A stretch of DNA of 64,000 bases from Enchytraeus crypticus (lineage: Eukaryota; Annelida; Clitellata; Enchytraeida; Enchytraeidae): contig CAJHZI010000423.1 in the NCBI GenBank assembly GCA_905160935.1, forward strand, positions 418,501 through 482,500, written 5' to 3'. Of the stretch, positions 7,961-62,998 are shown in pieces. How positions within the stretch are numbered: position 1 is the first letter of the stretch; the number at the start of each line of letters is the position of its first letter. The translations under genes were made by a program, and so were the position numbers. Below the pieces are notes generated by a model. The model did no database searches. It worked only from the letters and a program-made list of their open reading frames with translations, and was not told the origin of the DNA.

Positions 7961-28066
<20,106 letters not shown>

Positions 28067-39878: not shown

Positions 39879-40104
39879 ATGGATGAAAGAACGCCCCTCG
39901 TTACGGGTGATACCCGCCTCTCAAATTCTCTACTAAGAGAACACAGACAGATTGAGGAAGTGCAAGAAATCAACGAGGATGGCATGATTCAAGAAGAGAC
40001 TCCTGGATACAGGGATATCATCAAGAGTGTATTCAGTCGACCTTTTCTTTTCATAGTGACTTTCGTCAATCTGCTGAATTACATCGACAGATACACTCTA
40101 TCAG
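39879..40104 (+). CDS. SPNS: SPNS exon 1A (first exon, isoform A)
   Basis: Residues 1-75 and the first base of Gly76. Acidic N-terminus with a dileucine-like DERTPLV, then [20 protein letters not shown] (first membrane segment). The donor GTGAAA and the preceding exon bases are repeated six more times in the intron. Confidence 0.92.
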
Positions 40105-43100
40105 GTGAAATTATCTTATAATTACCGATACACTTTATCAGGTGAGATTATAGTATGATTAGGCCTACAGATACACTCTATCAGGTGATAATTAATCTTT
40201 TATGATAGTTATACTCTATCAGGTGATAATCTCGTATGATAGCTATACTCTATCAGGTGATAACCTCTTATGATTACAGCTATACTCTATCAGCCTATCA
40301 GGTGATAATCTCATTTATATGATTACAACTATACACTCTATACTATGGCAGGTTAGAATATCCTATGATTACTGCTATACTCATGCAATAATTAAATTTG
40401 GGGGGGGATGCAGGGAACTGATTGGTTTACACAAGCTCGTATATTTTGAATTATTTTTTAAGTTTATTTCCCCAGCTAGGGGCCCACATTAGCTACTAGG
40501 AGATATCTAAATACAATACGGAGGCCCGACAATTTTTTACCGTTCCTCTAGTTCTGAATTCCCATTTTAACTTAACTGAAGGAAAGCATATTACTTCACG
40601 TACCGCATTCCGGGCCCATATGGCTGACAAAATTAAGCTAAACACACGTTAATTATGGTTAAATAATTCTTTTTGATGACATTTACAATTTTCAATGCCA
40701 CATGTTTATCCATTAATATCAGGCTATTCAAGCAACTATCCGTGTTACGAATCCTAGGATGTGACTGACATTTTACTCTGTGATCTTGTACTGATCAGCT
40801 GTACCGGGAATTACTCTCATGACCGGAATTGTTACCAAGACTTCAGGAATAGCCATTTAAAATGTCATTATTTAACTTGACGCACTTACTTATCGACAAC
40901 TTTTTAGATATTCTAACAAAATATAGGCCCTAAGATAGATAGAATGTCTAAATAGCGTAGGGGTAGCGTCATGAAGTTTTAAATGACAGATCCTGCTGTG
41001 AATTGAACCCTCGCGGGTTCGATCCCGACCGCGCTGATCTGAGAGTAAAATCTCGGACATTCACTGGACTGGTTATACGGAAAATGGACTAAAATAGTCT
41101 AACGGATTAAGCAGGTGGTTTTAAAAGTGATAGATATCAACGTAGTTGATTATTCACTATAATGCGTGTTTTACTTGTTTTATTGAGAAATCAGAGGGTT
41201 GTTGTTGTTGAGTTAGATATAATTATATCTCTCCAGTTATACTAGCAACCTGTGCCTACTTTGTTAGCATCAGCAATGGTAAATCTTAGTTAAATAATAT
41301 AAATATCGACACTTTTCCAAGATACTACATACTTCTTACTTCAATTAATCTTGATTATATATACCACTTTATTTGTCAATATATGCCCTGATTATATAAA
41401 TTGTCATAAATTGGTCCCTCGCTTAGTTAGAGGTTGGTAGACGGGCTTAGATTTACAAATTACAATAAGTTTTGAAAGTTGCTTGATATAAGTTGCCAAA
41501 AGCTTTCAAGTTAAAGTTCTTAAAATATAAACAAACAAAAGATAAAAGTGAAATAAATGTTTACTAAATGCTATAGTAAAGCCAAACCCTAAATAATCAT
41601 GCCATAATTTATTAATATACTAAGGGGCTTTTAAATGTGTTTATCTTCTTTCTTCAGTATTGAAAAATTTAAAACATGTTATTAAATAAAACTAGATCAC
41701 GTGTTATTATTTTCTATAGGTTGAAAGTAATTGTTTAAATCTGGTTTTGTTAGCATTAATCGTTTTCAAGGTTCTTCCCCTTTAAACCAGGTCCGCAACA
41801 TTGGACAAAATTATATTTGCAAAAATATAATTTATCATATAAGCTCAATCTCGAAGCTATGCCAATATGCAATAGTAGAGTACAACAATTTTATTGCTTG
41901 AATTGTGGTATTAAATTTCTACCTCAATTGTAGCTTACATTTACACCTGCTTAAATTTTTTACTTTGAATCCATAATGTAGACCTGTATGAATTTGAAAG
42001 AATGCCATTCAAATCATGTAACTAAGAAACAGAACTAATTATATTATGCGGCACTGCTCTTTATGCTGCAGATATTTGTGACATGCTACAAGTCTTCTAT
42101 GACTTCATTAGGTATGACCGTATGAGTATATGAATTTGGTTTTAATTTTCTACTATTCTGAAGTTACTTCAAAAAGTGTCTAACCCTGGATAAAGACGAA
42201 TCTCAGAAATTCAAAATTAACATTTTAACAGTTTTTGCTCCAAGTGGAGAAAATTACTGAAAATTTTGGAAGCCCTCATTAAAATTTATGTCATTTGCAA
42301 CTTCAGATTTTAGAGATGAATTCTTAAAGTCTTCATTATTGTTTCTCTTAACTAATTTATCGATTGATGTCATTTTTGTTTAGACAACTTACTTACTAAG
42401 TTTGAAGAGACGTCAAATTATAACAATGAGTTTAAGCAGTAACAATAAGGAAGCTGTAAATGAACTAAAAGTAGATGTAGAAAAGAATGGAAAATTGAGT
42501 CTTGATTCTGTCTGCATTGATACGAAGGATGAAAAATTAGCAGAAAGAGTAGAATTAATGGTGGCAAAAGATGGAATAATTGCATCTGAAAATATAATAG
42601 CAAAGGAAAGGGAACAAGGTTTAACTCTAACATGTAACTGTCGCATGAAATCATCAAGAGTTGGACACATCGTCAATTTAATTCTAGTCCTTTCCAACAT
42701 TCTGAATTATATGGATCGATTTACAATTGCAGGTATTATTTTTTTAAACATCTGTTAATGTTTAATTTATAGACCTATATTATTATGCCTTGCTGGTTTG
42801 AAAGTAAATTGCATTTGATTTAATTACAAATTCAAAGTTTTTTAGCAAGTTAATCTTGAGTTTTTGGGTAACTTAAATATCTGAAAAACTGGAATTCTTC
42901 AAATAGCCTTATGTATTAAAGTGATCAACTTCTGCATTGAATAATTACTAAATAATCTAATCAAATTACTAGATTCCCTGTATTATGTCTAGGCTGCAAC
43001 AGAGTGGACCAACCTGGTTAGAATGTATGTGTTGTAATAGGTGATTAAGCAGAAACTAAGGAAGGCAATGGGAAACAACTTCAGAAGCCTTATTTTTCAT

Positions 43101-46100
43101 GCTTTAGGTTTAGTATAGTCTGAGTCCTGGTAACGAGATCAGTGTTGCTCAATGAATTGCTCCTATTGAGCGTGAGAATAGTCTGTGGGAAGGAATGTTA
43201 CATTGGACGTGCCATTGTGCAGGCCACTGTAGAGAACATTTAACGGAAATATTAGTATGACTTCAAATATCAGATAAATACTCTCAGGAGCATCAGATAT
43301 CTTCACATAAAGATGCTATAATTGCAGTTGTCATACGAAAATGTAGATCAATGCTTACTGAAAATGCCAAATATCAATATACTGGGTATTGCTGTATGAA
43401 TAAGAGTAGAAGTTATATGATCATTGTTTTAGTTTTGTAACTTCTGTATGGTTTGTGCTATTTAATATATAAATACCAATGAATAATTAATAGCAAACCA
43501 TTGCAAGGCTACCTGTTGCTGCATATTTGTATTCATAATCTTACATATCTTTTAATTGATTTCTATATTGCATCAGGTGTTCTGGAGCATGTAGAGGATT
43601 ACTATAACATCTCAAAATCTCAAGCGGGCCTACTGCAGTCCTCCTTCATAGTGAGCTATATGATTCTGTCGCCTGTGTTCGGCTATCTCGGAGACAGATA
43701 TAATAGAAAATACATCATGGCCGCTACTATCTTCTTCTGGTCTGGCATAACTCTAGCATCGTCGTTTGTAGGAAGGGATGTAAGTCACAAAGTTGTTGTT
43801 GTTATCTAATATATTTTAATGGACCTTGTAATAGTAGTGGTACATCTGGTGATATGGTTTAAATTAGTTGTAGTCCTTCATATGAACGCATCTCCTTCTG
43901 GTTCTATAAATATTTCTATTCAAATTATGATATTTTCTCGACTAATTTTATATATAAGCTAATAGCGTGTTAGCTTTAACATTGGAAATTTATGAAGCAG
44001 ATCAAAATCATCTAGTTTTAAAATAGATTTTTATCACCTGATCTGACTGGTTTTTGATCACCTGACCGGCATTGTTTTGTGTTTTTCTTTCTCCTCCACG
44101 CATGTTTTTTCAAATTGTTTTCTTTCGGGTGAATCGATTTGTAGTCATATATGATAAGGGTTTCTACCTGGGATCATCGTTGTATGAGGAAATGGATGTT
44201 AAATCTTTATTATTATTATTATTATTATTAAATATTATTATTATTATGACAATTATTATGATTATTATTTTAAGTTTTCCCAATCCTAGTAGAGCTTGGA
44301 TTTAAGTGAAGATGATGATTATTATTAATTATTATTATTATTATTATATTTTGTGTATTAAACAATGTGCTATATTGATATATTATGTGATAAATTATGT
44401 GATATATTATATCACAATGTGCTCTATTATGTGTGTTTTGTGTATTGAACAATGTGCAATAATTATGTGTGTTATGTGTGTTTTGTGTAGTATTTCTATA
44501 TATTTCTGCTGATGAGAGGATTGGTGGGGGTGGGAGAGGCAGGCTACTCCACCGTCACGCCCACTATCATTGCCGATATGTTTTCTAAGTCAACACGCTC
44601 TCTTGCACTTGCTATATTCTACTTCGCTATTCCCGTTGGAAGGTTTGATAAATTAAAGCATATTTTAATATTCTTACATTTACAATACTAATATTGAAAT
44701 TTATTTTTAACAATTTTAATGTACTGCGATCAAAATAATTTGGCTTATCATAAAGGAAGAATAATAATGAAGAATAATAGCTTAGAATAAAGGGAAGATG
44801 ATGATGATGATGAACACTAGTTCAATTATTGTAACTCTACGCTATTTCTCTAATATGTGTATAATTAATTAAATATAGTATGTGTACTTTGAGGATGTAA
44901 TTAGAAAAATTTTTCTTTATTGTTTTATATTGACAGTGGTTTAGGTTATATTGTGGGATCTAATATGGCAAACATTTTTGGAGGGTGGCAGTGGGCTCTA
45001 AGGGTACGTATTGTTACTGTGCGTTTATAATATTTTGCAGAAAACTTACTTTATTTTATAAGTTTATTTACTTTGTATAGAATATAATGTTGTAATTGAT
45101 TGATACTTCTGATTGATCAATTAGTTGTGAGGCTTTATCGGATGCTGAGCTAAATTGTAAGTCCTCTGCATGAGTTTATGCGCTTGTGAACGTTCACTAA
45201 CTTAAAGCTTTGAATGAATAAATAACACAATTTCTACATTAATCAGTGTTAATTTTCTAAATTCTTTAAGTACAGTAATTAAATACTTACATTTATACTC
45301 TTACTACTGATTCTCTAAAAAATTGGGAGTACAGTGCAATCTGCTTATATGCAAAGGACCTAACTGAATCTTATTTATAGCCAGAGCATGTTTTTAAATG
45401 AAACTGAGCCTAGAGCTATTAAAATATAGCTACTTACATTTCAATAGCCCTAATTCTAACTTGCCAACCATAACGTGTTGTATCTGCCTCTGCACATATA
45501 AAATAATGCTTAAATAAACGCTGTAGTTGCTATTGAGACTTGACTTTCTTTGGCATCCAGTCGCTATAGAATTTCAACACTTTCAAATAATGACATTGTC
45601 TTACGCTTGCTAACTAATGCCATATTCAAGTTTCTACTAAGAACTTTAAACACTAGCCCACTGTTCAACCTTAATTCAATCAATGCTCATATGAATGATT
45701 TAGGCTACACCAGGCCTGGGCTTGCTGTGTGTGATTCTGATCATGGTGTTCGTTGAAGAGCCCGAGAGAGGTAGTTCTGAGGGAAGTACCAACATGTCTA
45801 CGACATCCTGGAGTACTGATCTCATCTACCTCGCCAAAAAGTATCAATACCGGCTGCTTGCATTTAATTATATTTGTGTATACTATTTGCAATATAACAT
45901 ACCTTTGCTTCCATGAGCTAGCTTGGTGTAGATATTGTTTAATAAAAGTTTTGTTCACTTGAGAGTAGGAATTTGCTTCTTGAAATCTGTCTTGTGTTAA
46001 ATGTTTCCAATAGTGGCTTAAGTTGTGAGATTCATTATATTTCTGGTATTATTAAATCACCAGTAGCTTATGCTATATTTTGAAATTGTGGCTTTTGTTG

Positions 46101-49100
46101 TAAGATTCACTATGTAAACATATCCATTAATACTCTCGTTGTTGTTTAAATTGTTCAGTTGGTTAGACATTTATATGTTGTTTAGTTATATGTGCATATA
46201 TAATGTATGTATAATGATAATATAAAAAAATAAAATATATCTTGTAATATAAGTAACAATTATTTATTTATTTATTGCTTGATTTAAGGCATAATAACCC
46301 ATAGATGAATCGTACACATACAACAATGCAAAAAGAACCAGAAAATTAAATTGGCTAAGCATATATTAAGCTCTAAGACAATTACTAATAGAATTAGGCA
46401 TAAAAACCTACAATAAGCTCAGAACATCAAAGCACTTAACTAGCATATTAGTATTAAAACAAAAACAGAAACTTAAGAAAGGAAACTTTGTAAACACATG
46501 CGGTATGTCATGTGTGTAACTATACGGAATAAAAAAAATAAAATAAATTATCCAGCAAGCACATTCTAAACTTTAATCTGTAATTAGAAAGGAGAGTATC
46601 AAAACTAAGTAATCCGGTTTCCAGAGCGTGATGGTTAAGCTGCTGTAACGTTTATATCCAAAAACGTTTATGTTATATAAATACATACATGCATACTTAC
46701 GTACATACATACATACATATACATAATTACCAGTTACTGTCCTATTTCCAATCTTAACTTCATCTCTAAACTTCTTGAAAAGGTAATTTATACCCGTTTA
46801 TGCACTCGTCTTGATTCTTTCCCTTCTCTCTCTCATTATCAATCTGCCTATAGAAAACTCCATTCTACTGAAACCGCTCTTCTTCGTATACATAATGATC
46901 TTAGCTTGGCCATGAGTAGTAAACAGGTTTCTGCCTTGGTTCTTCTAGATCTCTCTGCTGCCTTTGATACAATTGACCATGGCATCCTAATAAATAGGCT
47001 TAAATCTTGTTTTGGCATATCTGATTCTGCCTTTTCCCTTCTCACATCATATCTCTCATGTCGCACACAATCTGTTGTTATTGGTCAAAATCGCTCTTCT
47101 GAACTACCCCTCCTACGCGGTGTTTCTCAAGGTTCAGTGTTAGGTCCATTGCTCTTCTCTTTATATATCACACCTCTTAGCTACCTGCTTGCTCAGTCCT
47201 CCATAAATTTTCATTTTTATGCAGACGACACACAACTATATATTTCCTTTTCTAATCATGATTCTGATCAAAAACTGGCTCATCTCTCATCCATTCTTGA
47301 CAAGGTTTATTCCTGGTTTTGTGCTAACCGTCTTGCTGTTAATCCCTCCAAAACTGAATACCTTTTAATTGGCACTCCTTTGCAAAGAAGTAAAATTACC
47401 AATAACTCTGTTAATTTTCAGAATCTTGCTCTTTCACCTTCTCGATCTGCCGAAAACCTTGGAATCATATTTGATGAAAACCTTGACTTTAAATCCCATA
47501 TCTCATCTGTTTGTCGCGCTTCTTTCTTTCAGATTCGTCAGATTAGGCAAATACGTCCATCCCTTACTAGAAATTCAGCCACTATCCTTGCTAATTCTAT
47601 AGTTCATTCAAAGCTTGACTACTGTAATTCATTATTACATGGGTTGCCTACTTCTTCTCTCAATCGTTTGCAGCACGTCCAAAATTCTCTTGCACGTGTT
47701 GTTTGTAAGTCCTCTCGACTTCAATTTCGCTCTCTTTCTCTTCTACGCAGTCTTCACTGGCTCCCTGTTAATCAACGCATAAAATATAAAATAGCTCTAT
47801 TAACTTTCAAAACTCTGCGATTTGGCAAGCCTTCTTACTTATCTGAAATTCTTCTTCCCTATCGCCCCTCACGTACACTTCGCTCCACCGATGCCAATCT
47901 TCTCTCAGTTCCAAATATTCTCACGTCATTGGGCAGACGTTCATTTTCTTACGCAGCACCCACAATCTGGAACTCTTTACCTGCTAATCTTCGCTCTTGT
48001 TTTCTCTTTCAACATTCTCTAGCAAGCTTAAAACTTACCTTTTCCCACCATAGACATAATCAATCTACCCTGACCATTTTTTGATCACCGGACTGGCTTT
48101 TGTTTAGGACCTTACTTCTCCTCAGCACATTTCTTTCGCAGATTGGTCTGGGTGAATTGATCTGTAGTGATATGTGCTGTTGGGGACGTCCCTGACATCA
48201 TCCCTGGATGAGGAAACGGACGTTAAACCTTTATTATTTATTATTATTATTAATTATTTAAAACAGATGATGCAATATACAAGTATTGAAGCATATATAA
48301 TGCGTTTATTTTGTGATCTCTTTACTTGATTGTGAGAGCAGCAAGAGCTTCATGTTGTCTTCCGCTGGTTTTACATGTGTATCATTTGTCACTGGTGCTC
48401 TGGCATGGTGGGGCCCAACCTTTTTTGCGATGGCTTTTGAAGTCAGCACGGCCACTCAGGCCGATGACGCAGATAAAGCACAGTACGTATTTTAAAGATA
48501 TTCATATTATTTTTGTGAACAATGCGTTATTGATTAAATATTCCTAGCAATTTTAATTAATAACATTCACTATATTTAATTTGCAAAAGTAGCAGATGTT
48601 GAAAATTAATTCCATTACAGGTTTGGCAAACTCAAATTCAAGTATATTATCAAATATATATATATTGTAGCTTATGTATAGTATAGTATATACCGGTATA
48701 ATGTAGCCTTTTATTATTGTAATAAATGTTAAGGCGTTCTGTCTTTCATATTTATATACATGCATATATATTTGAGGCCATTCATGAGCACTCCATTATT
48801 CTGAATCTCATAATATATAACTTATGATATTGATGTGTTGTTTGTAGTCTGAGCTTTATATTCGGAGTGATCACGTGCTTCGCCGGATTCTCGGGCGTCG
48901 CTCTTGGTTGGGTTCTTGCTGCGGTGCTGCGTAAATATACGCCTCAGGCTGATCCACTAGTGTGCGGTGCCGGGCTGATTAGCGGCGCTCCCTTCCTCTT
49001 CGCCGTCATTGTCTGGTCCCGCTACAACATCGACGCCACCTGGGTGTGTGATCATTAATGAGACGTACTGTATACTTCTTATAGTTTTACCCACAATCTG

Positions 49101-52100
49101 GAGCTCTTTACCTGCTAATCTTCGCTCTTGTTTTTCTCTTTCAACATTCTCTAGCAAGCTTAAGACTTACCTTTTCCCACAAAGACATAATCAATCTACC
49201 CTGACCATTTTTGATAACCGGACTGGCTTTCGTTTAGGACCTTACTTCTCCGCAGCACATTTCTTTTGCAGATTGGTCTGGGTGAATTGATCTGTAGTGA
49301 TGTGTGCTGTTGGGGACGTCCCTGACATCATCCCTGGATGAGGAAACGGACGTTAAACCATTATTATTATTATTATATTATTATAGGATACAGGAAGATT
49401 TAACTTTTTGTAACCAAAAATATTCGTAAAAATATTTGTAATTTTCTTTCCAAACTTTATTTATTTTCTAGTAGTTACTGGCTGGAGCCAGTGGCAAACC
49501 CGGTAAGATACTCAACCACAGAGCAGTTTGTGCGGGGTTCAAATCCTGGGCTCACCCATCACTGACATCGCTTTCGAGTGAGGAAACTGACATTAACCTT
49601 AGCTTTACCAGCTTTTATATAATTATTATGCAATTTTCATTTGTATTTCCTTATACAAGTTCTTGCTGTTAATGGAGGTTTCTGTGTTCATTCTCATTGA
49701 TATAACTGATTGCATTCTGCCTGTTTATGGATTGCTTTCATTAGATAGCTGTACAGCTTTAATAATAAAACTAACTATTTACTACTCTATATAATAAATC
49801 AACTAATATGCCATTTTAAATAGTATTTTTATATATTTATATTTAGATGGTTTAAAGCTTAAAATATATCCAGTTATCACAATTAATTAACTTGTGCGTT
49901 TGTTTTTTGAATTTTGTTTGATTTGAGGCTTAGAATTTATAACCATTTGTTTGACTGAATTTGTTTGCTTAGGCTAATATAATAGGTGTTTATGTCTCTC
50001 CTTACAAAAATGGACTAAATTGCCTAATGGATTAGCCATATGATAATAAACGTGATGGATATCAACGTGGTTGATCATATCACTATAATGCATATAATTA
50101 TTATGTCTCTCTTGATATCTTCAGCCGATGGCGAGCCTTAGTTAGAATTCATTTGATTTTTTAAATATAATTATTTTTTTATGTTGCAGGCATGTGTATA
50201 TTTTGGAGAGACTCTGGTTTCTTTGAATTGGGCCCTTGTCACCGACATATTACTGGTAGAGAGTATTTTGACATTGTTAATGTGCTTATACGAGATTTTG
50301 TTTTGTTAATGTAGTAAAATATTTACAGTCAATGCATACAATCTTATATCTGTCTCTGCACAGCTTAGCCTTTACTAATAAGTAATAAAAATATAAGGTG
50401 TGAAATGATTTTCTTCAGGACAATTTATTGGCAAAATTAGACTAAATGCATGCAGTTTTGTGAATATTACCCTGAAGTCTCTGTGATGAAAGCTTTGTAG
50501 TCGATTGTATCTTTATGTATAAATATTCATAATATTTATATGTTGCTTGTGTTGTCAGTATGTTGTCTAGAATTGCCTGATGTAGTTTATGTTATCAGTA
50601 TATTGTCTAGAATTGCCTGATGTTGTTTATGTTGTCAGTATGTTGTCTAGAATTGCCTGATGTTGTTTATGTTATCAGTATATTGTCTAGAATTGCCTGA
50701 TGTTGTTTGTGTTGTCAGTATGTTGTCTAGAATTGCCTGATGTTGTTTATGTTGTCAGTATGTTGTCTAGAATTGCATAATGTTGTTTATGTTGTCAGTA
50801 TGTTGTCTAGAATTGCCTGATGTTGTTTATGTTGTCAGTATGTTGTCTAGAATTGCCTTATGTTGTTTATGTTGTCAGTATGTTGTCTAGAATTGCCTGG
50901 TGTTGTTTATGTTGTCAGTATGTTGTCTAGAATTGCCTTATGTTGTTTATGTTGTCAGTATGTTGTCTAGAATTGCCTGATGTTGTTTGTGTTGTCAGTA
51001 TGTTGTCTAGAATTGCCTGATGTTGTTTATGTTGTCAGTATGTTGTCTAGAATTGCCTTATGTTGCTTGTGTTGTCAGTATGTTGTCTAGAATTGCCTGA
51101 TGTTGTGTATGTTGTCAGTATGTTGTCTAGAATTGCCTGATGTTGTTTGTGTTGTCAGTATGTTGTGGTACCTACCAGAAGAGCCATGGCCAGTGCCATT
51201 CAGATCTTCATGTGCCACCTGCTGGGAGACGCTGGTAGTCCTTATCTTGTCGGACTGGTGAGCTTACATTTACATTCAAGAAGTAGAAAATTAAACATTT
51301 TATTTTGAACTTGGTTTTGACTGTTTTAAGTTTTAATTAAGTCTTCGCCGAAGCATTCAACATCAGAATTCAACTGGTGGATTAAACTTGGAGAATTTCA
51401 ATGTGAATCTGGAGTGGATCATTAAGTTTAAATTTCCTAGTGTGACTTAGTAACATGCTATATATATATGTATATATATGTATATATATATATATATACA
51501 TGTATATATACAATGATATAAACCCTGGGTTGTTGAAGGATTATTCTTACATCTCTGAAAAGCAAACGTTATGAATAATTGTGAAGTGAGAAGAAAATAG
51601 GAAAACATAATACGACAGAAACAAGATAGTTCTCGAAAAATGTGCGATCTGTCATTTGTGACTACAGAAAAATTGAAAATAAATACGTACATATAGTATT
51701 ACTCTACAGCTCAATATGTGAGATTAACCTAAGACGAAGATGAAAAACTATTTTAAAGAAATCAATACTGGGTACTAATATAAGTACTAGTAAATATATT
51801 AGTAATATGTACTGGGTCAGTGTTGGAATCTCTGAAGTTTGAACTATGAAATCATAATAACTCTGACGATAAAGCCTACATCTGACAATGTGATATTATT
51901 CTATTTCGTTCACGGCAATGCCATGTAGTATTGACCCAACATTCATTGCCCTGTCTCAAAGTTGTGTAATTTTTGTATGAAGCTAAATGACTGGGCAAAA
52001 CTGATAATAAATTAATAATAATTATATTTAATTAATCATAATAATAAAGGTTTAACTTTCGTTTTCTTATGCAGTGATGATGTCATGGACGTTAAAACTT

Positions 52101-53964: not shown

Positions 53965-55058
53965 CTCTCTCTCTTAGTGCACTGCCTACTGGCAGGTCCA
54001 TGGTACATAACGCCTCCACTCTTCTCTGTTTTCCGCCTTCCTCTTCATTTCCTCATATGAGTGGGTCTTTGAATCATCTAACATACCTAATCTCGGCCTG
54101 CCCCTGCCTCTTTTTCCTTCCATTCTACCTTCTATGACTTCTTTTAATAGACCTTGCCCCCTTAGAATGTGTCCTATCCATCTCTTCTTCCTATTTCTTA
54201 ATACATTTATCAACTGTCTATCTGTTCCAACTCTCTCCAGGACTTCCTCATTTGTAACCTTTTGAGTCCAGCTAAACCTCTCCATTCTTCTCCAAATCCA
54301 CATTTCCAATGCCTCCAGTTTCCTAATATCTTCCTTCCTTAAGGTCCATGTTTCACATCCATACAATAGCGTGGTCCAAACCAAAGTTTTCACTATCTTT
54401 ATCTTTGTGTCTTTCTGTAGACTTTTTGTTAATAGTTCTTTTCTACTACCAAAGGCCGCTTTTGCTTGTGCAATCTTACTGCATATTTCTGTCTCACATT
54501 TCCCATCATCGGTTATAGTATGACCCAAATATTTGAAACTCCTTACCTGTTCCAATTTTGTACCATTTATTGTGATATTAACTTCACCTTTATTATTGGA
54601 CACTCTCATAACCTTGGTCTTTTTTATATTAATCTTTATGCCATATCTTAGGGCCGTATCATTCAGCCTATCCATTATCTTCTGCAATCCAATCTCGCTG
54701 CCCGCTACCATTCCTTGATCATCTGCAAATCGTACATCTTGTAACAAATTCCCTCCTACTTTTATTCCTTCTTCCAAGTCTTCCATGGGTTCCTCCATCA
54801 TTGCCTCAGCATAAATGTTAAACAGCAGCGGCGAAATGCTACAACCTTGTCTTACTCCACGTCCTATTTCACCTTCTTCTGAGTATTCTTGCTGGATTTT
54901 GATTACTGCTCTTTGATTTATGTACAAGTTCAAAATTAGTCTTCTATCTCTCCAGTCAATTCCTATTCTTTTTAAGATATTCATCATCGTTATCCAATCA
55001 ATCCTGTCAAAGGCCTTCTCGAAGTCTACAAAGCATACAAAAACGTCATTTCCAAATA
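53965..55058 (-). mobile_element. RTE-type non-LTR retrotransposon, 5'-truncated
   Basis: A minus-strand frame open from about 55058 to 53986 encodes FVCFVDFEKAFDRIDW, GVRQGCSISPLLFNIYAEAM, the catalytic FADDQGMVAGS, LLYGCETWTLRKEDIRKLEA and the C-terminal GHILRGQGLLKEVIEGRMEG then KRGRGRPRLGMLDD. These are typical of RTE-type elements. The missing part is the endonuclease and RT fingers. There is no stop within the remaining frame, so this copy is young. Older 3' fragments lie at 21032, 25118, 52428, 61755 and 63395. Confidence 0.88.
53986..55058 (-). CDS. RTE reverse transcriptase, partial ORF
   Basis: About 355 codons of reverse transcriptase palm, thumb and C-terminal region. The first internal Met is at 54987. 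The frame ends with EEWRRYVPWTCQ and a stop. Confidence 0.85.
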
Positions 55059-56749
55059 CTGAAATATAGGATAAAAATATTCAGCAAATATTAATACAAA
55101 TGTTTGAAAATCTATAAATAAATAACATTAGCTAAATATGTATTGCGATTTTTAGTTCTCCGTTTTAAAATTAATTTTTCTAGAAAAATTGTGCATATTG
55201 TATATGAAAATTGAGCCTACTTTAGATTGTATTTATTGTATTAGAAATTAAGCAATAAACTATGTACTGGGAATTGTACAAAGCAGTTTGAGAAATGCTG
55301 CAGTTATTTCATTGACACTTGTGCTGTTTAATTCACTATCACACCAATTCAACGTATTGTATAGTAAATAGACTTACGTCGGGCTGAGCATCATTTGTAC
55401 TATTCAATGGCATCATCAGCAATCAGACTAGTCAGGTACTAGAATGGCAAAGCTTTTTATGTGATGGAAGAACTTTAACATTTAGTGAACCGGCTCATTT
55501 GAGTTAATTAAACGTTTGAAACCGTGTTTAAACAGCATCGTATTAGTTTTTGAAGTTGTAACTATGCTGCCATTGTATCATATTTAACAAATTGTCAGAA
55601 TTGATTAGATAGAAATACATTGTGCTAGTGCTGTTATTCCAGTCATATATTGTTATTTGATTAGCTGTTCCTGTATTTTTCGAATACTAATCAATCAGAA
55701 TGCTCTAGTTTTCTGTAGTAGATAACTTTGCAGAAACAACTCAAGTGCCGTTCTTGTTCAATCAAGTTTGCTAGTTAATCGAAGTACATATTCAAGTCGT
55801 AGCTGTTAATTGTTCTAGGTTAGTTTTTTCTGATGATACTTTTAAGTGGTGTAGTCTTAATTGTTGAAAAATAAAAGTATAAAGAAGCTGGATTGACGAG
55901 GGCGGTGCATAGATAACTTTGAAGTTGCTACTTGTAACGATATTTTAATTTAGCTACACCATACTAAAAATGTTCACAAGGAGACTTATTTCTTCACCAT
56001 ATGATTGACTCTAATATCTTCATTACTGCTACATTCGCTGTCTTAACTTTGCAAATCTGATTAATTTGAGTTTAACCGTTATTTTAATATTTATAATGCG
56101 ATACTCTTAGCTATACAATACTATTTACAGTGCTACGTTTAGCCAAAATTGTTTAGATTTTGTTTCTCTGAAAAAATATTTTATGTAATGTGTTAAGTGT
56201 AATTCAAGGACATCTATTATGTCATATTATATTCCGAATTTTGCTGAAGATGTATTTCGTCGTAATAGGTTGCAAACCATTTAGATATATATATACGTCT
56301 ACTTAAAAAAGGTGCATTCAGCATCTGTTGTCGTATCACAAGAGATAGTGGCAGTAACGCTGGGATTTGAACTGATGGCTTCCCTCTCAGACAAGATGAA
56401 GATTGTTGTTTATTAGAACCAAAGTAAAAATATAAGAAATGAATCACAGCATACAGACACATCATGAAAACATCATATCAGTGAACATAAATGAATCAAA
56501 CACTTAATCTCATCAATCATTCTAATTAAAACCAAGCATCTTATTCATTGAGTAAGATGTTATTTATTGACAAGTGTGTTATTCATTCAGCCATCCAGCT
56601 GGTACCATTTATTTTTTGCAAATGTCTATAAATATGCATGTTAAATGCAGTTACTATGTGTACTCAATGGCAATCCCTTGGCTTTGTGGCTCTACAGCCT
56701 AATCGATTAATTATCACTTATTGTTGGAATTCTATAGTTTACCCGGGTT

Positions 56750-58670: not shown

Positions 58671-58833
58671 GTTAAGTCATTACAAAATATACATCACTTG
58701 CAATAATTTAAACCTTGAGTTGTCTATGCAGCCACAACAACATCAGCAAATTTGTCGATAGTTTATTACAAAGTGTACATTAGATTTGGTATATTTCAAA
58801 TATACATCAGTTCATATGTAGACAGGTTGCTTC

Positions 58834-58898
58834 TCATAGTCCTAGACGTCGCTCCATCAGGATGTGTGGCTGACCCACAATCTCTGCATTCATCGGAT
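58834..58898 (-). CDS. POMP: POMP terminal exon 5
   Basis: Completes Asp, then PMNAEIVGQPHILMERRLGL and TGA. Acceptor TTGTTGTTGTTTAG. Only this copy of the repeated exon edge continues into MERRLGL, matching the family C-terminus (human ends MVEYKLGLL). Confidence 0.93.
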
Positions 58899-61800
58899 CT
58901 AAACAACAACAACAACAACAAATACATGTACATGAGGATATGAGGCTGACCCACAATCTCTGCATTCATCGGATCTAAACAACAACAACAACGTATACAT
59001 GTACATGAGGATGTGTGGCTGACCCACAATCTCTGCATTCATCGGATCTAAACAACAACAACAACGTATACATGTACATGAGGATGTGTGGCTGACCCAC
59101 AATCTCTGCATTCATCAGATCTAAACAACAACAACAATGTATACATGTACATGAGGATGTGAGACTGACCCACAATCTCTGCATTCATCGGATCTAAACA
59201 ACAACAACAACGTGTACATGTACATGAGGATATGAGGCTGACCCACAATCTCTGCATTCATCGGATCTAAACAGCAACAACAACAACGTATACATGTACA
59301 CGAGGATGTGAGGCTGACCCACAATCTCTGCATTCATCGGATCTAAACAACAACAACAACAACAACAAATACATGTACATGAGGATGTGAGACTGACCCA
59401 CAATCTCTGCATTCATCAGATCTAAACAACAACAACAATGTATACATGTACATGAGGATGTGAGACTGACCCACAATCTCTGCATTCATCGGATCTAAAC
59501 AACAATAACAACAACGTATACATGTACATGAGGATGTTTGGCTGACCCACAATCTTTGCATTCATCGGATCTAAACAACAACGTATACATGTACGGTGAA
59601 GCTAACTGACGATATATATACACATCTCCATAACTTAAACACTGCAGTACAATACTATAAATGATTACTAAAGTACTTGTAGTTTACAATCTCAATGATA
59701 ACATTTAAGGCAAACAGACGTCATGTATAATTGGTTCATAAGAGAATATGAAGAAGCACGTTAGTACATACGTCGCAGTATAAGTAGCAGAGTATTAGGT
59801 ATAATATATAATAGATAAGGTGAAAACTGATTTGCTCTCTGTCTGATAGAAGGTGAGTTTAATCATTTTCTTTTCCAAAAATATTTCTGATCGCTCTCTG
59901 ATTTTAGACAGTTCACTTATGTTCTTGGTAAATGCAGAATTGGGACGCATGTCATCCATACAGAAAATGTGTCGTTTTTTATTATGGAGAATTTTTAGTT
60001 ACCATTCAGCATGTCGTCAAACTCCATGTCGTCGATCTTTCCGGTCAGAATGTCAGACATGAGATGAGAGGAAGGTAGGCCTGGCAGGCGCTCCATCTGT
60101 TGATATATTAGTAATAGAAATACTGTAGCTAGTAAAATACTGTCAACACTAGTTTAGACCAACTTCCATTCACAAACAATTCATCCTTCTTGATGAAAAT
60201 TAATTAATTCCTCACACTCATACTGCGTATGTTAAAGCTCATGCGCTAGCGTAGAAGAAATAATCCTACATAACAGAAATCAAAATTTAATGTAGATTAA
60301 AATTGCAGTATTCAAAATGAAAATGATGGATTAAGAGCTGACTAGTACCGTATGCAAGGCGCCTGTGTATTGATGTACAGAAAAAAATACGAACCTACAA
60401 ATCTTTTTAGGAATAAAAGTCTACAGAATATATTAACAATAATAAGGCTTAATTCAGCCATTTTTCACAAAAAAAGCCACAATCTTTTCAGACTGCCTAC
60501 AGTAACACAGAAAACTAATAAGAAGCAGTAGGTAGTAACAGTCTGTAGACAGTCAATGCCTACAGTAACTGTCCATAGACAATACACAAAGGTTTTAGTG
60601 TGAAAAATGTAATCGAAAAAAACTAAGTGGAATGTCCACATGAAATGTATTTGCAAAAATTAACTATGCTTTAAAAGAAGCGCAACTAAGCTACAGAATA
60701 AGCGCTGAATTATACCAAAACTTTCTAAAATACTAATACGAATTCAACGGCAACTCAGCACATTCTAATAATTTGTACCTTAGATGCAATTTCCCGTTCT
60801 ACTTTCAGTCTAAGAGGAGCGTGCAGGCCCTGAGAGTTACGCAGCATCAGAAAATCATTCTTCTCTCGATTCTCATGATACTGAACATAAAATCAAACAA
60901 CAATCACAGTATGTGAAATCTTACTACAAAATACACCACAAATATCAAGCTCAATCAAGAATCATTATAGTAACATTACAAGACTACAACAGATACAGTT
61001 TGAGTCAGAATAATGTTCGTAAAAATTATGATGCAATACAAGACACTGTATTAAATGAACAGCATTTATTTATTTCAGCAAAAACAATGAAAACATATAT
61101 AGCAAATAAAAATACATAGTAAAGTATGAAATAAGCAATATGAAGAGGTAATCTCTAATTTAATAGAAGTTGGTAGTGAAAAATGTTGACAGTAAAACCA
61201 TATATCAATGCATTTGAAAGTTACGAGCATTTGATAACTTTAGTAACATAACATTATATGCTTACTTTTATAAATATCTTTTTTATTTCGAGTTTTCACT
61301 GGCAAGTGTATGGTCATCAGGGTAGTTCTCAACTTTAAAATAGTAAATTGTGTGGCTACCAAAGGTTTTACGGTAATAAGTAGTGTAGTAAAAAATACGT
61401 AATTCAGACTTGAACGAGCTTACTTTTGCTAGAGCTTATTTATCGTATTGATACACAGAGCTTAAGCTCTCTATAATAGAAACATTCATAGGTCTTGTTT
61501 GCTTACTTAATTACAACTATTTATTTTTCTGTACTTATAAAACTTGTGCTGAAGTGAACAAACAAACAGTTTGAAAATGAAAGAAACGTCAGCAACAGTT
61601 CAAAGACTTGAAACACTCACGTGTTTCTCAGAGAACTCCAGTGGATGACGGTTGACCTGAACGACAGAAGCCTTCTGACGCAGCCTGTCACACATCATCA
61701 TCATCATCAGATAAAAATTCTCTATTTTCAATTATAAATACAAAACCTTGAGATGAAGGAAGATATCAGGAAACTAGAGGCACTGGAAATGTGGATTTGG

Positions 61801-62998
61801 AGAATAATGGCCAGGATTAGCTGGACTCAAAAGGTTACAAATTAGGAAATTCTGGAGAGAGTTGGTACAGATAGACAGTTGATAAATGCATTAAGAAATA
61901 GGAAGAAGAGTTGGATAGGAAATATTCTAGGGCGGGGAGGGGGTTGGGGAGAAGTCTACTAAAACAGATCATAAAAGGCAGAATAGAAGGCAATCGAGGC
62001 AGAGGCAGGCCGAGATTAGGAATGTTAGATGATTTAAAGATCCACTCATACGAGAATATGAATAGGAAAGCGAAGACAAAAAAGAGTGAAGGCATTGTAT
62101 GCCATGGACCTGCCAGTAGGCAGTGCAATAAGAGAGAGAACCTTGAGATAATTCTCCCACAGGGGATTCTAAATGGCAAGCAAATCTTTTATCAATTCAG
62201 AAGTTCTTAGACTCAACACATGAAACTGAATTGCTTATATTAATTAGTCAAAGTTTAATTGGTCAAATTTAAGCCAATCATCTAAAAGCAATGTGCTTCA
62301 GCATGAAGTTGGACGACTTGGCTAGATGTATTAATATTTTAAATAAACTATAACGTAAGGCCACCTCATAGTTTATTAAACTACATGCAAAACTGGATAC
62401 AATTTAACTAGCAAAATAATTAGCGAAAATAAGCATGCTTAAATTACATATTGAATAACTAGCAACAATAGAGATTAAATATTCATTTTCAGGTGAGGAA
62501 GGAAATTGCTTAATTATCTATTCACTATTTCACACCATGGATATCTAGACTGTAGTTGGACACCATTTAGTTACCTAGTTAATATATATGTAATAACTAC
62601 TAGCTAATATTTCATTATTAATAATATAAATATTATGATTGATATAATTTATTTGTACATAAATAACATTGAGCAATTCTTTAAAATTTTGAAGATTAAA
62701 ACATCAATTAACACTACAGACAAGCAAAACACAAGTTTCAACTTGAGGGCTAAATCAGCAATCCGGGATTCCAATTGTCCAACATCAAGGAATCAACCAC
62801 ATATGTTCAACGAAAAAGCACCATCCAAAGCATTATAACCTTCGTAGGTATCGCTATACACGAATGAACTTTGGACAATTCAATATTAATGCTATTTCAA
62901 AACATGTACCCAGAAGTCATAGGGTCCTCAAGACCAAATGGTTGCGACAGGTCCATGGGTTTCACCAGAGAGCTGCCTTCAGCATGAGGTCTCAACAT
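58834..62998 (-). CDS. POMP: Proteasome maturation protein (UMP1/POMP)
   Basis: A chaperone that recruits beta subunits during assembly of the 20S proteasome and is then degraded as its first substrate. Five minus-strand exons join in frame to 137 residues (human 141): 62910-62998, 61621-61684, 60779-60880, 60003-60096 and 58834-58898. Recognisable blocks are GLEDPMTSGLRQKA, NRHPLEFSEKHYHENREKND, LRNSQGLHAPLRLKVE, ERLPGLPSSHLMSDIL, MEFDDMLNDPMNAEIVGQPH and the C-terminus LMERRLGL. The start is the ATG of MLRPHAEG, which gives the expected distance to LRQKA. The frame is also open up to an acceptor-like TTTTCAG at 63011, so an extra 5' coding exon is not excluded. The odd feature is the last intron: nine tandem copies of the terminal exon's acceptor and first 40 coding bases stand before the real one. 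Confidence 0.93.
58858..59590 (-). repeat. 73-80-base tandem repeat made from the POMP terminal exon edge and its acceptor
   Basis: Ten copies of the acceptor GTTGTTGTTTAG followed by ATCCGATGAATGCAGAGATT and GTGGGTCAGCCACACATCCT. AG dinucleotides lie (plus-strand coordinates) near 58899, 58975, 59048, 59121, 59194, 59267, 59343, 59423, 59496 and 59570. Nine decoys continue with CATGTACATGTATACG instead of the real coding end. Most units are 73 bases; three are 76-80 because the CAA/TTG run varies. The overlapping 70-codon frames across it are by-products. Confidence 0.96.
59591..60002. other. POMP intron 4, unique part
   Basis: AT-rich sequence between the exon 4 donor and the first decoy exon edge. 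Nothing recognised. Confidence 0.5.
60003..60096 (-). CDS. POMP: POMP coding exon 4
   Basis: MERLPGLPSSHLMSDILTGK and IDDMEFDDMLN plus one base. Acceptor ATCAACAG, donor GTAACT. Reading on into the intron gives GN and a stop. Confidence 0.93.
60779..60880 (-). CDS. POMP: POMP coding exon 3
   Basis: YHENREKNDFLMLRNSQGLH and APLRLKVEREIASK, phase 0 both sides. Acceptor TATGTTCAG, donor GTACAA. Confidence 0.94.
61621..61684 (-). CDS. POMP: POMP coding exon 2
   Basis: Completes Gly30, then LRQKASVVQVNRHPLEFSEK and H. Acceptor TGTGACAG, donor GTGAGT. Confidence 0.93.
61755..62130 (+). pseudogene. RTE-type LINE ORF 3' fragment
   Basis: Plus-strand remnant reading KLEALEMWIWRI, SWTQKVTN, a stop, then EILERVGTDRQLINALRNRK and, after frameshifts, GRGRPRLGMLDDLKIHSYEN and the CTGCCAGTAGGCAGTGCAAT end. 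A decayed copy of the LINE at 53965-55058, in POMP intron 1. Confidence 0.82.
62910..62998 (-). CDS. POMP: POMP coding exon 1
   Basis: MLRPHAEGSSLVKPMDLSQP then FGLEDPMTS and two bases of Gly30. Donor GTACAT. The exon may extend to 63010, after the acceptor TTTTCAG. Confidence 0.82.

Follow-up and report, generated by a model that had tools for sequence, protein, structure and literature searches.

The closest described counterparts of the array reported here are the mirages of amphioxus, arrays spanning exon-intron boundaries (PMC3087553). Mirages have been described in Adh3, in the globin genes BflGb6 and BflGb9 and in TnC, with similar repeats in PGBD5, and the Adh3 data and globin RT-PCR suggest that they leave splicing undisturbed (PMC3087553, PMC3902484). 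In these reports the copies retain splice signals and are homogenised within an array, and regular splicing is reported. The splice-edge arrays of Enchytraeus crypticus are the same in anatomy as the mirages described there. They differ in where they occur: the array at the proteasome chaperone gene POMP lies in a non-amphioxus genome, has ten copies and sits at a terminal exon, and arrays of this kind are found at many junctions of the few genes examined.

Two further systems bear on the comparison. In potato, a tandem duplication crossing an intron-exon boundary produced a new intron (PMC4974935). The potato and POMP duplications both carry an acceptor, a branch site and an exonic segment with donor potential across such a boundary; in potato, however, there was a single duplication and the new intron is in use, whereas POMP has nine extra copies, whose use as micro-exons or introns is a proposal. 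In human duplicated genes, variable internal tandem repeats alter gene structure and can yield novel introns through cryptic splice sites (PMC2812944), although the repeats described there lie in exons and introns of recent paralogues, and arrays of a gene's own splice edge are not among them. The literature that we searched, in which subscription journals were mostly uncovered, contained no multi-copy splice-edge array outside amphioxus. As far as this search reaches, what is new here is the scale and the occurrence outside cephalochordates.

The POMP gene

Judged by homology, the minus-strand gene at 62998–58834 of the window (the whole 64-kb stretch of DNA analysed) is POMP/UMP1, the identity that had been read from the sequence at the outset. 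Its predicted protein matches the Pfam UMP1 profile (E=6e-27) and human POMP (E=6e-26), the latter alignment extending through the C-terminus, so that both the UMP1 domain and the conserved C-terminus of the family are present. Five exons are predicted on the minus strand, all with GT-AG borders, the junctions being predictions from homology and these border dinucleotides: exon 1 (62910–62998, the coding part as predicted, with an upstream exon possible), exon 2 (61621–61684, placed by its GT-AG borders), exon 3 (60779–60880), exon 4 (60003–60096, from exon prediction, with its donor GT at 60002–60001) and the terminal exon (58834–58898, placed by homology), which encodes DPMNAEIVGQPHILMERRLGL and then the stop codon. 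Intron 4 is 1,104 nt long. A likely poly(A) signal, AATAAA, lies 67 nt past the stop codon (58762–58767, minus strand). POMP looks single-copy in the genome, since exon 3 of this gene gave the sole hit in a genome-wide profile search with PF05348.

A C-terminus of the MER[RQ] type is shared by the 14 POMP homologues found: in 13 of them three last residues follow MER[RQ], and the most distant, P0014, ends in MERRLNMKF. The homologue P0001, from another species, is 92% identical and continues across all four junctions; the contig that holds it is no longer than 1,392 nt, and the P0001 sequence is therefore probably cDNA. A search with POMP of assembled genome contigs and viral contigs confirmed no relative.

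Anatomy of the array

The end of intron 4 and the first 44 nt of exon 5 are repeated in tandem as ten acceptor-edge units of 73–79 bp (58855–59582, minus strand; TRF 73 x 9.8 copies, score 1167). The unit spans the exon-intron boundary, which is what defines a mirage minisatellite. Ten acceptors of the form TTTAG/AT(C or T), the slash marking the splice point, lie within the array. Nine of them belong to decoy copies in intron 4 (58899–59570, minus strand), each with acceptor and branch-point-like signals; the first exonic bases of copies 1–9 are 59570, 59494, 59421, 59342, 59266, 59193, 59120, 59047 and 58974, and that of copy 10 is 58898. The spacings between successive acceptors (76, 73, 79, 76, 73, 73, 73, 73 and 76) differ because of GTT triplets and all equal 1 modulo 3. 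The sequence-only reading had located this array correctly, together with the exon, the donor at 60002, the ten acceptors and the frame arithmetic; the exonic part that the copies share is 44 nt, not the 40 coding bases that it gave. It was also right that the proper C-terminus follows from the furthest copy only: ERRLGL and the stop codon are encoded solely by copy 10, which adjoins the exon body. By homology to known proteins, the start of the exon is placed at this copy, which the coding logic also calls for. Copy number is taken from the assembly alone.

The copies are imperfect, copy 1 holding only (GTT)3. Copies 2–5 match copies 6–9 in order, with 1, 2, 4 and 1 mismatches for the pairs 2/6, 3/7, 4/8 and 5/9, and this ordered resemblance suggests that a four-unit block was duplicated within the array. 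In summed mismatches to the other nine copies, the edge copies 10 (46) and 1 (41) rank first and third and the inner copy 4 (44) ranks second; with an inner copy as diverged as those at the edges, any edge effect is weak. At the upstream flank and the start of copy 1 (59574–59601, minus strand) lies TTCAC, possibly the ancestral branch-point motif, with its A 27 nt before acceptor 1; the repeat unit begins just downstream of it.

Splice signals and predicted products

Four genes were annotated in the window, giving 35 donors and 33 acceptors: a complete TAO kinase gene of 16 exons (kinase part against 6bdn, E=9e-146), a complete spinster-like transporter gene of 11 exons (against 9boi, E=3e-142), POMP, and a partial CDP-alcohol phosphatidyltransferase gene (PF01066, E=4e-19). 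The last of these we take to be CDIPT. An acceptor matrix was built from 32 of the 33 annotated acceptors, leaving out the POMP terminal acceptor. With this matrix copies 10 and 4 tie for the best score (12.6), copies 2, 3 and 5–9 score 10.9–12.0, and copy 1, the nearest to the donor, is by far the weakest at 6.4; leave-one-out scores of the 33 annotated acceptors run from -2.5 to 13.0. The decoys had been described as perfect, a term that does not fit copy 1, with its (GTT)3 and its score of 6.4 against 10.9–12.6 for copies 2–10.

A yTnAy motif lies 27–46 nt upstream of each of the ten acceptors, which in copies 2–10 is a CTCAY supplied by the coding bases of the preceding copy; the criterion is a loose one, with 28 of the 33 annotated acceptors having such a motif at 15–50 nt. 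Because every acceptor has its own branch-point-like motif, the ten sites could compete, rather than being decided by one scan. The earlier picture of a spliceosome scanning from a single branch point is for this reason not supported and was set aside. A terminal exon running to 20 nt past AATAAA would measure 157 nt if begun at copy 10 and 829 nt if begun at copy 1. The 33 annotated introns of the window measure 240–2,501 nt (median 844). Each decoy also holds an in-frame piece of 24 nt followed by a donor-like site, GTCAGY.

Splicing to a decoy would give altered C-termini. From copies 1–8 the reading frame would run through one acceptor and be closed by the TAG of the one after it, and from copy 9 it would end in the 3' UTR, so that the proposal of a tail closed by the TAG of a later acceptor holds for eight of the nine decoys and fails for copy 9. 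The tails after the HILM position would have 33–36 residues for copies 1–8 and 44 for copy 9. Decoys 5, 8 and 9 keep every residue up to GQPHILM, as had been claimed for all nine; the other six carry one or two substitutions (E to K and H to N in copy 1, P to S in copies 2 and 6, P to L together with P to S in copy 3, M to V in copy 4, P to L in copy 7). These substitutions fall at positions that an alignment of 15 sequences shows to be invariant or conserved to 90% or more. Eight exonic sites vary across the copies and five of these variations change an amino acid, about what unselected sequence would give, and the exonic parts of the decoys appear to vary as if non-coding.

Choice among the ten acceptors

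We think it probable that the array is a junction-spanning minisatellite, a mirage, whose last copy is used through terminal exon definition while the nine decoys are mostly skipped. A block that begins just past the probable branch point of intron 4 and takes in the first 44 nt of exon 5 would have been tandemly duplicated, and the array would then have grown by unequal exchange, including one exchange of a four-unit block. The exon body, the stop codon and the poly(A) site would have remained attached to the last copy only, and every other copy would be intron within the pre-mRNA. We infer that the exon-proximal copy is chosen because the spliceosome recognises the terminal 3' splice site together with the poly(A) signal close by, the nine look-alikes being mostly passed over. 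Rare use of a decoy would yield POMP with a largely hydrophobic tail of 33–44 residues in place of ERRLGL, a product probably cleared as faulty protein. In large introns, splice sites closest across the exon are preferred, according to one report (PMC9225289). That setting and the POMP array both present competing sites in large introns with the exon-proximal one expected to be used; the sites in that report are ordinary alternative sites, whereas those at POMP are near-identical tandem copies. A counterpoint to last-copy choice is that the acceptor of copy 10 scores 12.6 against 10.9–12.6 for copies 2–9 and is tied by copy 4. As for the homologues, P0001 comes from another species, which may be free of the array, and none of the 14 is known to carry one.

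Of the two outcomes framed by the sequence-only reading, skipping of the decoys is favoured over a family of altered isoforms. That the decoys are used appreciably, giving POMP isoforms with altered C-termini that perhaps regulate proteasome assembly, seems to us unlikely. The decoy acceptors (6.4–12.6) do lie within the annotated range (-2.5 to 13.0, 33 acceptors), each decoy has its branch-point-like motif, and, the exon being terminal, the new stops would fall in the last exon. Stop codons in a last exon escape junction-dependent decay. Yet a decoy-type tail is present in none of the 14 homologues found, the decoys are altered at conserved residues as unselected sequence would be, and the same architecture recurs in unrelated genes; in nine of the 12 counted arrays most unit spacings are not divisible by three, so that decoy use would usually break the frame.

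Alternatively, the decoys might act as in-frame micro-exons or budding introns, with splicing to acceptor k, inclusion of the 24 nt ATCCGATGAATGCAGAGATTGTGG, and onward splicing from the donor GTCAGY to acceptor 10, which would add DPMNAEIV. This is attractive in that the 24-nt piece is present in all nine decoys (copies 1, 3 and 7 each differ at one base), the frame is kept in all nine, TGG/GTCAGT scores 6.3 against 6.4 for intron 4's own donor (5.6 leave-one-out), and one of the donors predicted for CDIPT in this window likewise reads GTCAGT; potato, too, is reported to have gained an intron by boundary-crossing tandem duplication in which an exonic segment gives the donor (PMC4974935). Even so, we regard it as very improbable: GTCAGT occurs in only three of the ten copies, the other seven having GTCAGC (5.4); the real copy itself has GTCAGC and must leave it unused; splicing between adjacent copies would leave introns of 49–55 nt against a minimum of 240 nt among the 33 window introns; and the insertion is absent from the homologues found. 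Equally hard to credit is that copies were gained or lost during assembly. Arrays of this sort vary in copy number and are easily misassembled, and one mirage was apparently misassembled in a draft genome (PMC3087553); against this, the copies differ by patterned substitutions with a four-unit block structure, and like arrays occur in several genes across several contigs.

Recurrence in the window and at genes elsewhere

Splice-edge arrays are a habit of the Enchytraeus crypticus genome, not of POMP alone. The array had at first been presented as a peculiarity of POMP; similar arrays at other genes, and the amphioxus mirages as a known kind, place it in a wider class. Elsewhere in the window, on the plus strand, the spinster-like gene has an acceptor array at the exon at 51159 (50540–51166; 40 bp x 15.7, 8 exon nt) and a donor-edge array at an alternative first exon (40087–40293; donor copies 34–45 nt apart), and the TAO kinase gene has donor-edge arrays at exon 10 (20020–20247; 40 bp x 5.7, 19 exon nt) and exon 14 (24891–25001; 38 bp x 2.3–3, 6 exon nt) and a borderline case at the exon 6 donor (12885–12993; 55 bp x 2), where the array begins exactly at the donor GT. 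Six of the 25 arrays with a period of at least 20 hold a junction, four of them donors and two acceptors, against 1.15 expected (P=0.0006) under a null in which each array is reduced to one unit and placed at random; we prefer this collapsed-unit null because an array starts from one unit. Counting genic arrays only, 6 of 18 hold a junction against 1.41 expected (P=0.0016). Enrichment is weaker under a full-length (coverage) null (6/25 against 1.64, P=0.004; genic, 6/18 against 2.11, P=0.013). The window was chosen for POMP, and the fair tests are therefore the count with POMP's own array removed (5 of 24 against 1.05 expected, P=0.003) and a set of chaperonin genes, both of them small.

The replication set consisted of chaperonin-family (PF00118) genes on other contigs, found by profile and fetched blind to arrays, taking five of the nine multi-exon places, those with the shortest spans. 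Among 24 neighbouring exon pairs, profile gaps led us to skip 7, another 6 gave no solution and 11 were solved; one solved junction, L027 J3, which scored 0.9 and whose donor lies inside an array, was discarded, leaving ten, and L028, with no solved junction, was left out of the simulation. Six of the ten introns have their acceptor within an array and none has its donor there. With a period of at least 20, 0.81 would be expected over the 20 arrays, and none of 40,000 simulations reached 6; with a period of at least 15 (28 arrays), P=0.0001. Four of the six positives lie in a single gene, L025, and one, L027 J1, is marginal, its array covering just 2 nt of exon. On visual inspection the units resemble those of POMP, for example an 80-bp unit present three times with about 46 exon nt and a 30-bp unit present nine times with 8 exon nt. 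Among the 12 counted junction arrays of the window and L025–L027, taking 34–38 for the spinster first exon, the three exceptions to a spacing that is not a multiple of three are 48, 30 and 30 bp; in these three, use of another copy need not break the frame.

Further examples were found via array edges and are for that reason uncounted as tests; they comprise a beta-catenin gene, a channel-like gene with one further acceptor array, and genes near 72k and 221k. The beta-catenin gene (L016–L017; contig C330, about 368.0–375.6 kb, some 43 kb before the window) has three copies of the exon 6 acceptor, at least 13 of the exon 8 acceptor (13 by one pattern) and one extra copy of the exon 2 donor, with other arrays beginning immediately past the donor consensus of exon 10 and 8 nt beyond the donor of exon 11. 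Its protein shows 65% identity to the Branchiostoma floridae protein and 63–68% to those of molluscs and annelids among the 120 matches listed, the best of which reaches 74% over 98% of the query; on these identities amphioxus was rejected as the source of the DNA. Two neighbouring genes are, we presume, PDCL3-like and sugar-kinase-like; the former has a single array, beyond the stop codon only, and none was found in the latter. Three 10-kb stretches on other contigs (L022–L024) held no confirmable gene and so gave no test.

We tentatively propose, as a possibility rather than an expectation, that a continuing junction-biased duplication process in this lineage multiplies splice edges, acceptors in particular, and that many of its housekeeping introns, a large share of them, would therefore terminate in stacked, near-identical 3' splice sites. 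The spliceosome would faithfully read the exon-proximal one, and the stacks would form a reservoir from which new micro-exons and introns could arise. A neutral account is that ancestral introns may have been short, and any seed unit was then likely to touch a junction. Near-identical tandem splice sites that differ mainly in their neighbours are a natural experiment on site choice, and if many essential genes carry them (POMP, chaperonins, beta-catenin, TAO kinase and spinster), exon definition would become measurable by ordinary RNA-seq. A genome rich in such stacks would also reveal early intron growth and possible intron gain. Exon edges placed by gene predictors or short-read aligners in Enchytraeus crypticus may be wrong and call for caution.

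Other features of the window

About 62 copies of a 15-bp unit (TAGTAAGCACTGTGC; 25517–26421) form an array that ends 21 nt before the TAO kinase exon 15 acceptor and whose consensus unit has a donor-like GTAAGC and a TAG, and an array of 39-bp units (19080–19456) begins 14 nt past the donor of exon 9 in the same gene. The alternative first exon of the spinster-like gene (39879–40104) joins in frame to exon 2 at 43577. Open frames lie at 46681–48084 on the plus strand and 53986–55080 on the minus strand; we take them to resemble LINE reverse transcriptases. A dispersed element with a GGTTCAAATCC box recurs at 1–130, 19650–19770, 22870–22960, 24540–24670, 27590–27700 and other places; the box appears to us tRNA-like and the element is presumably a SINE.
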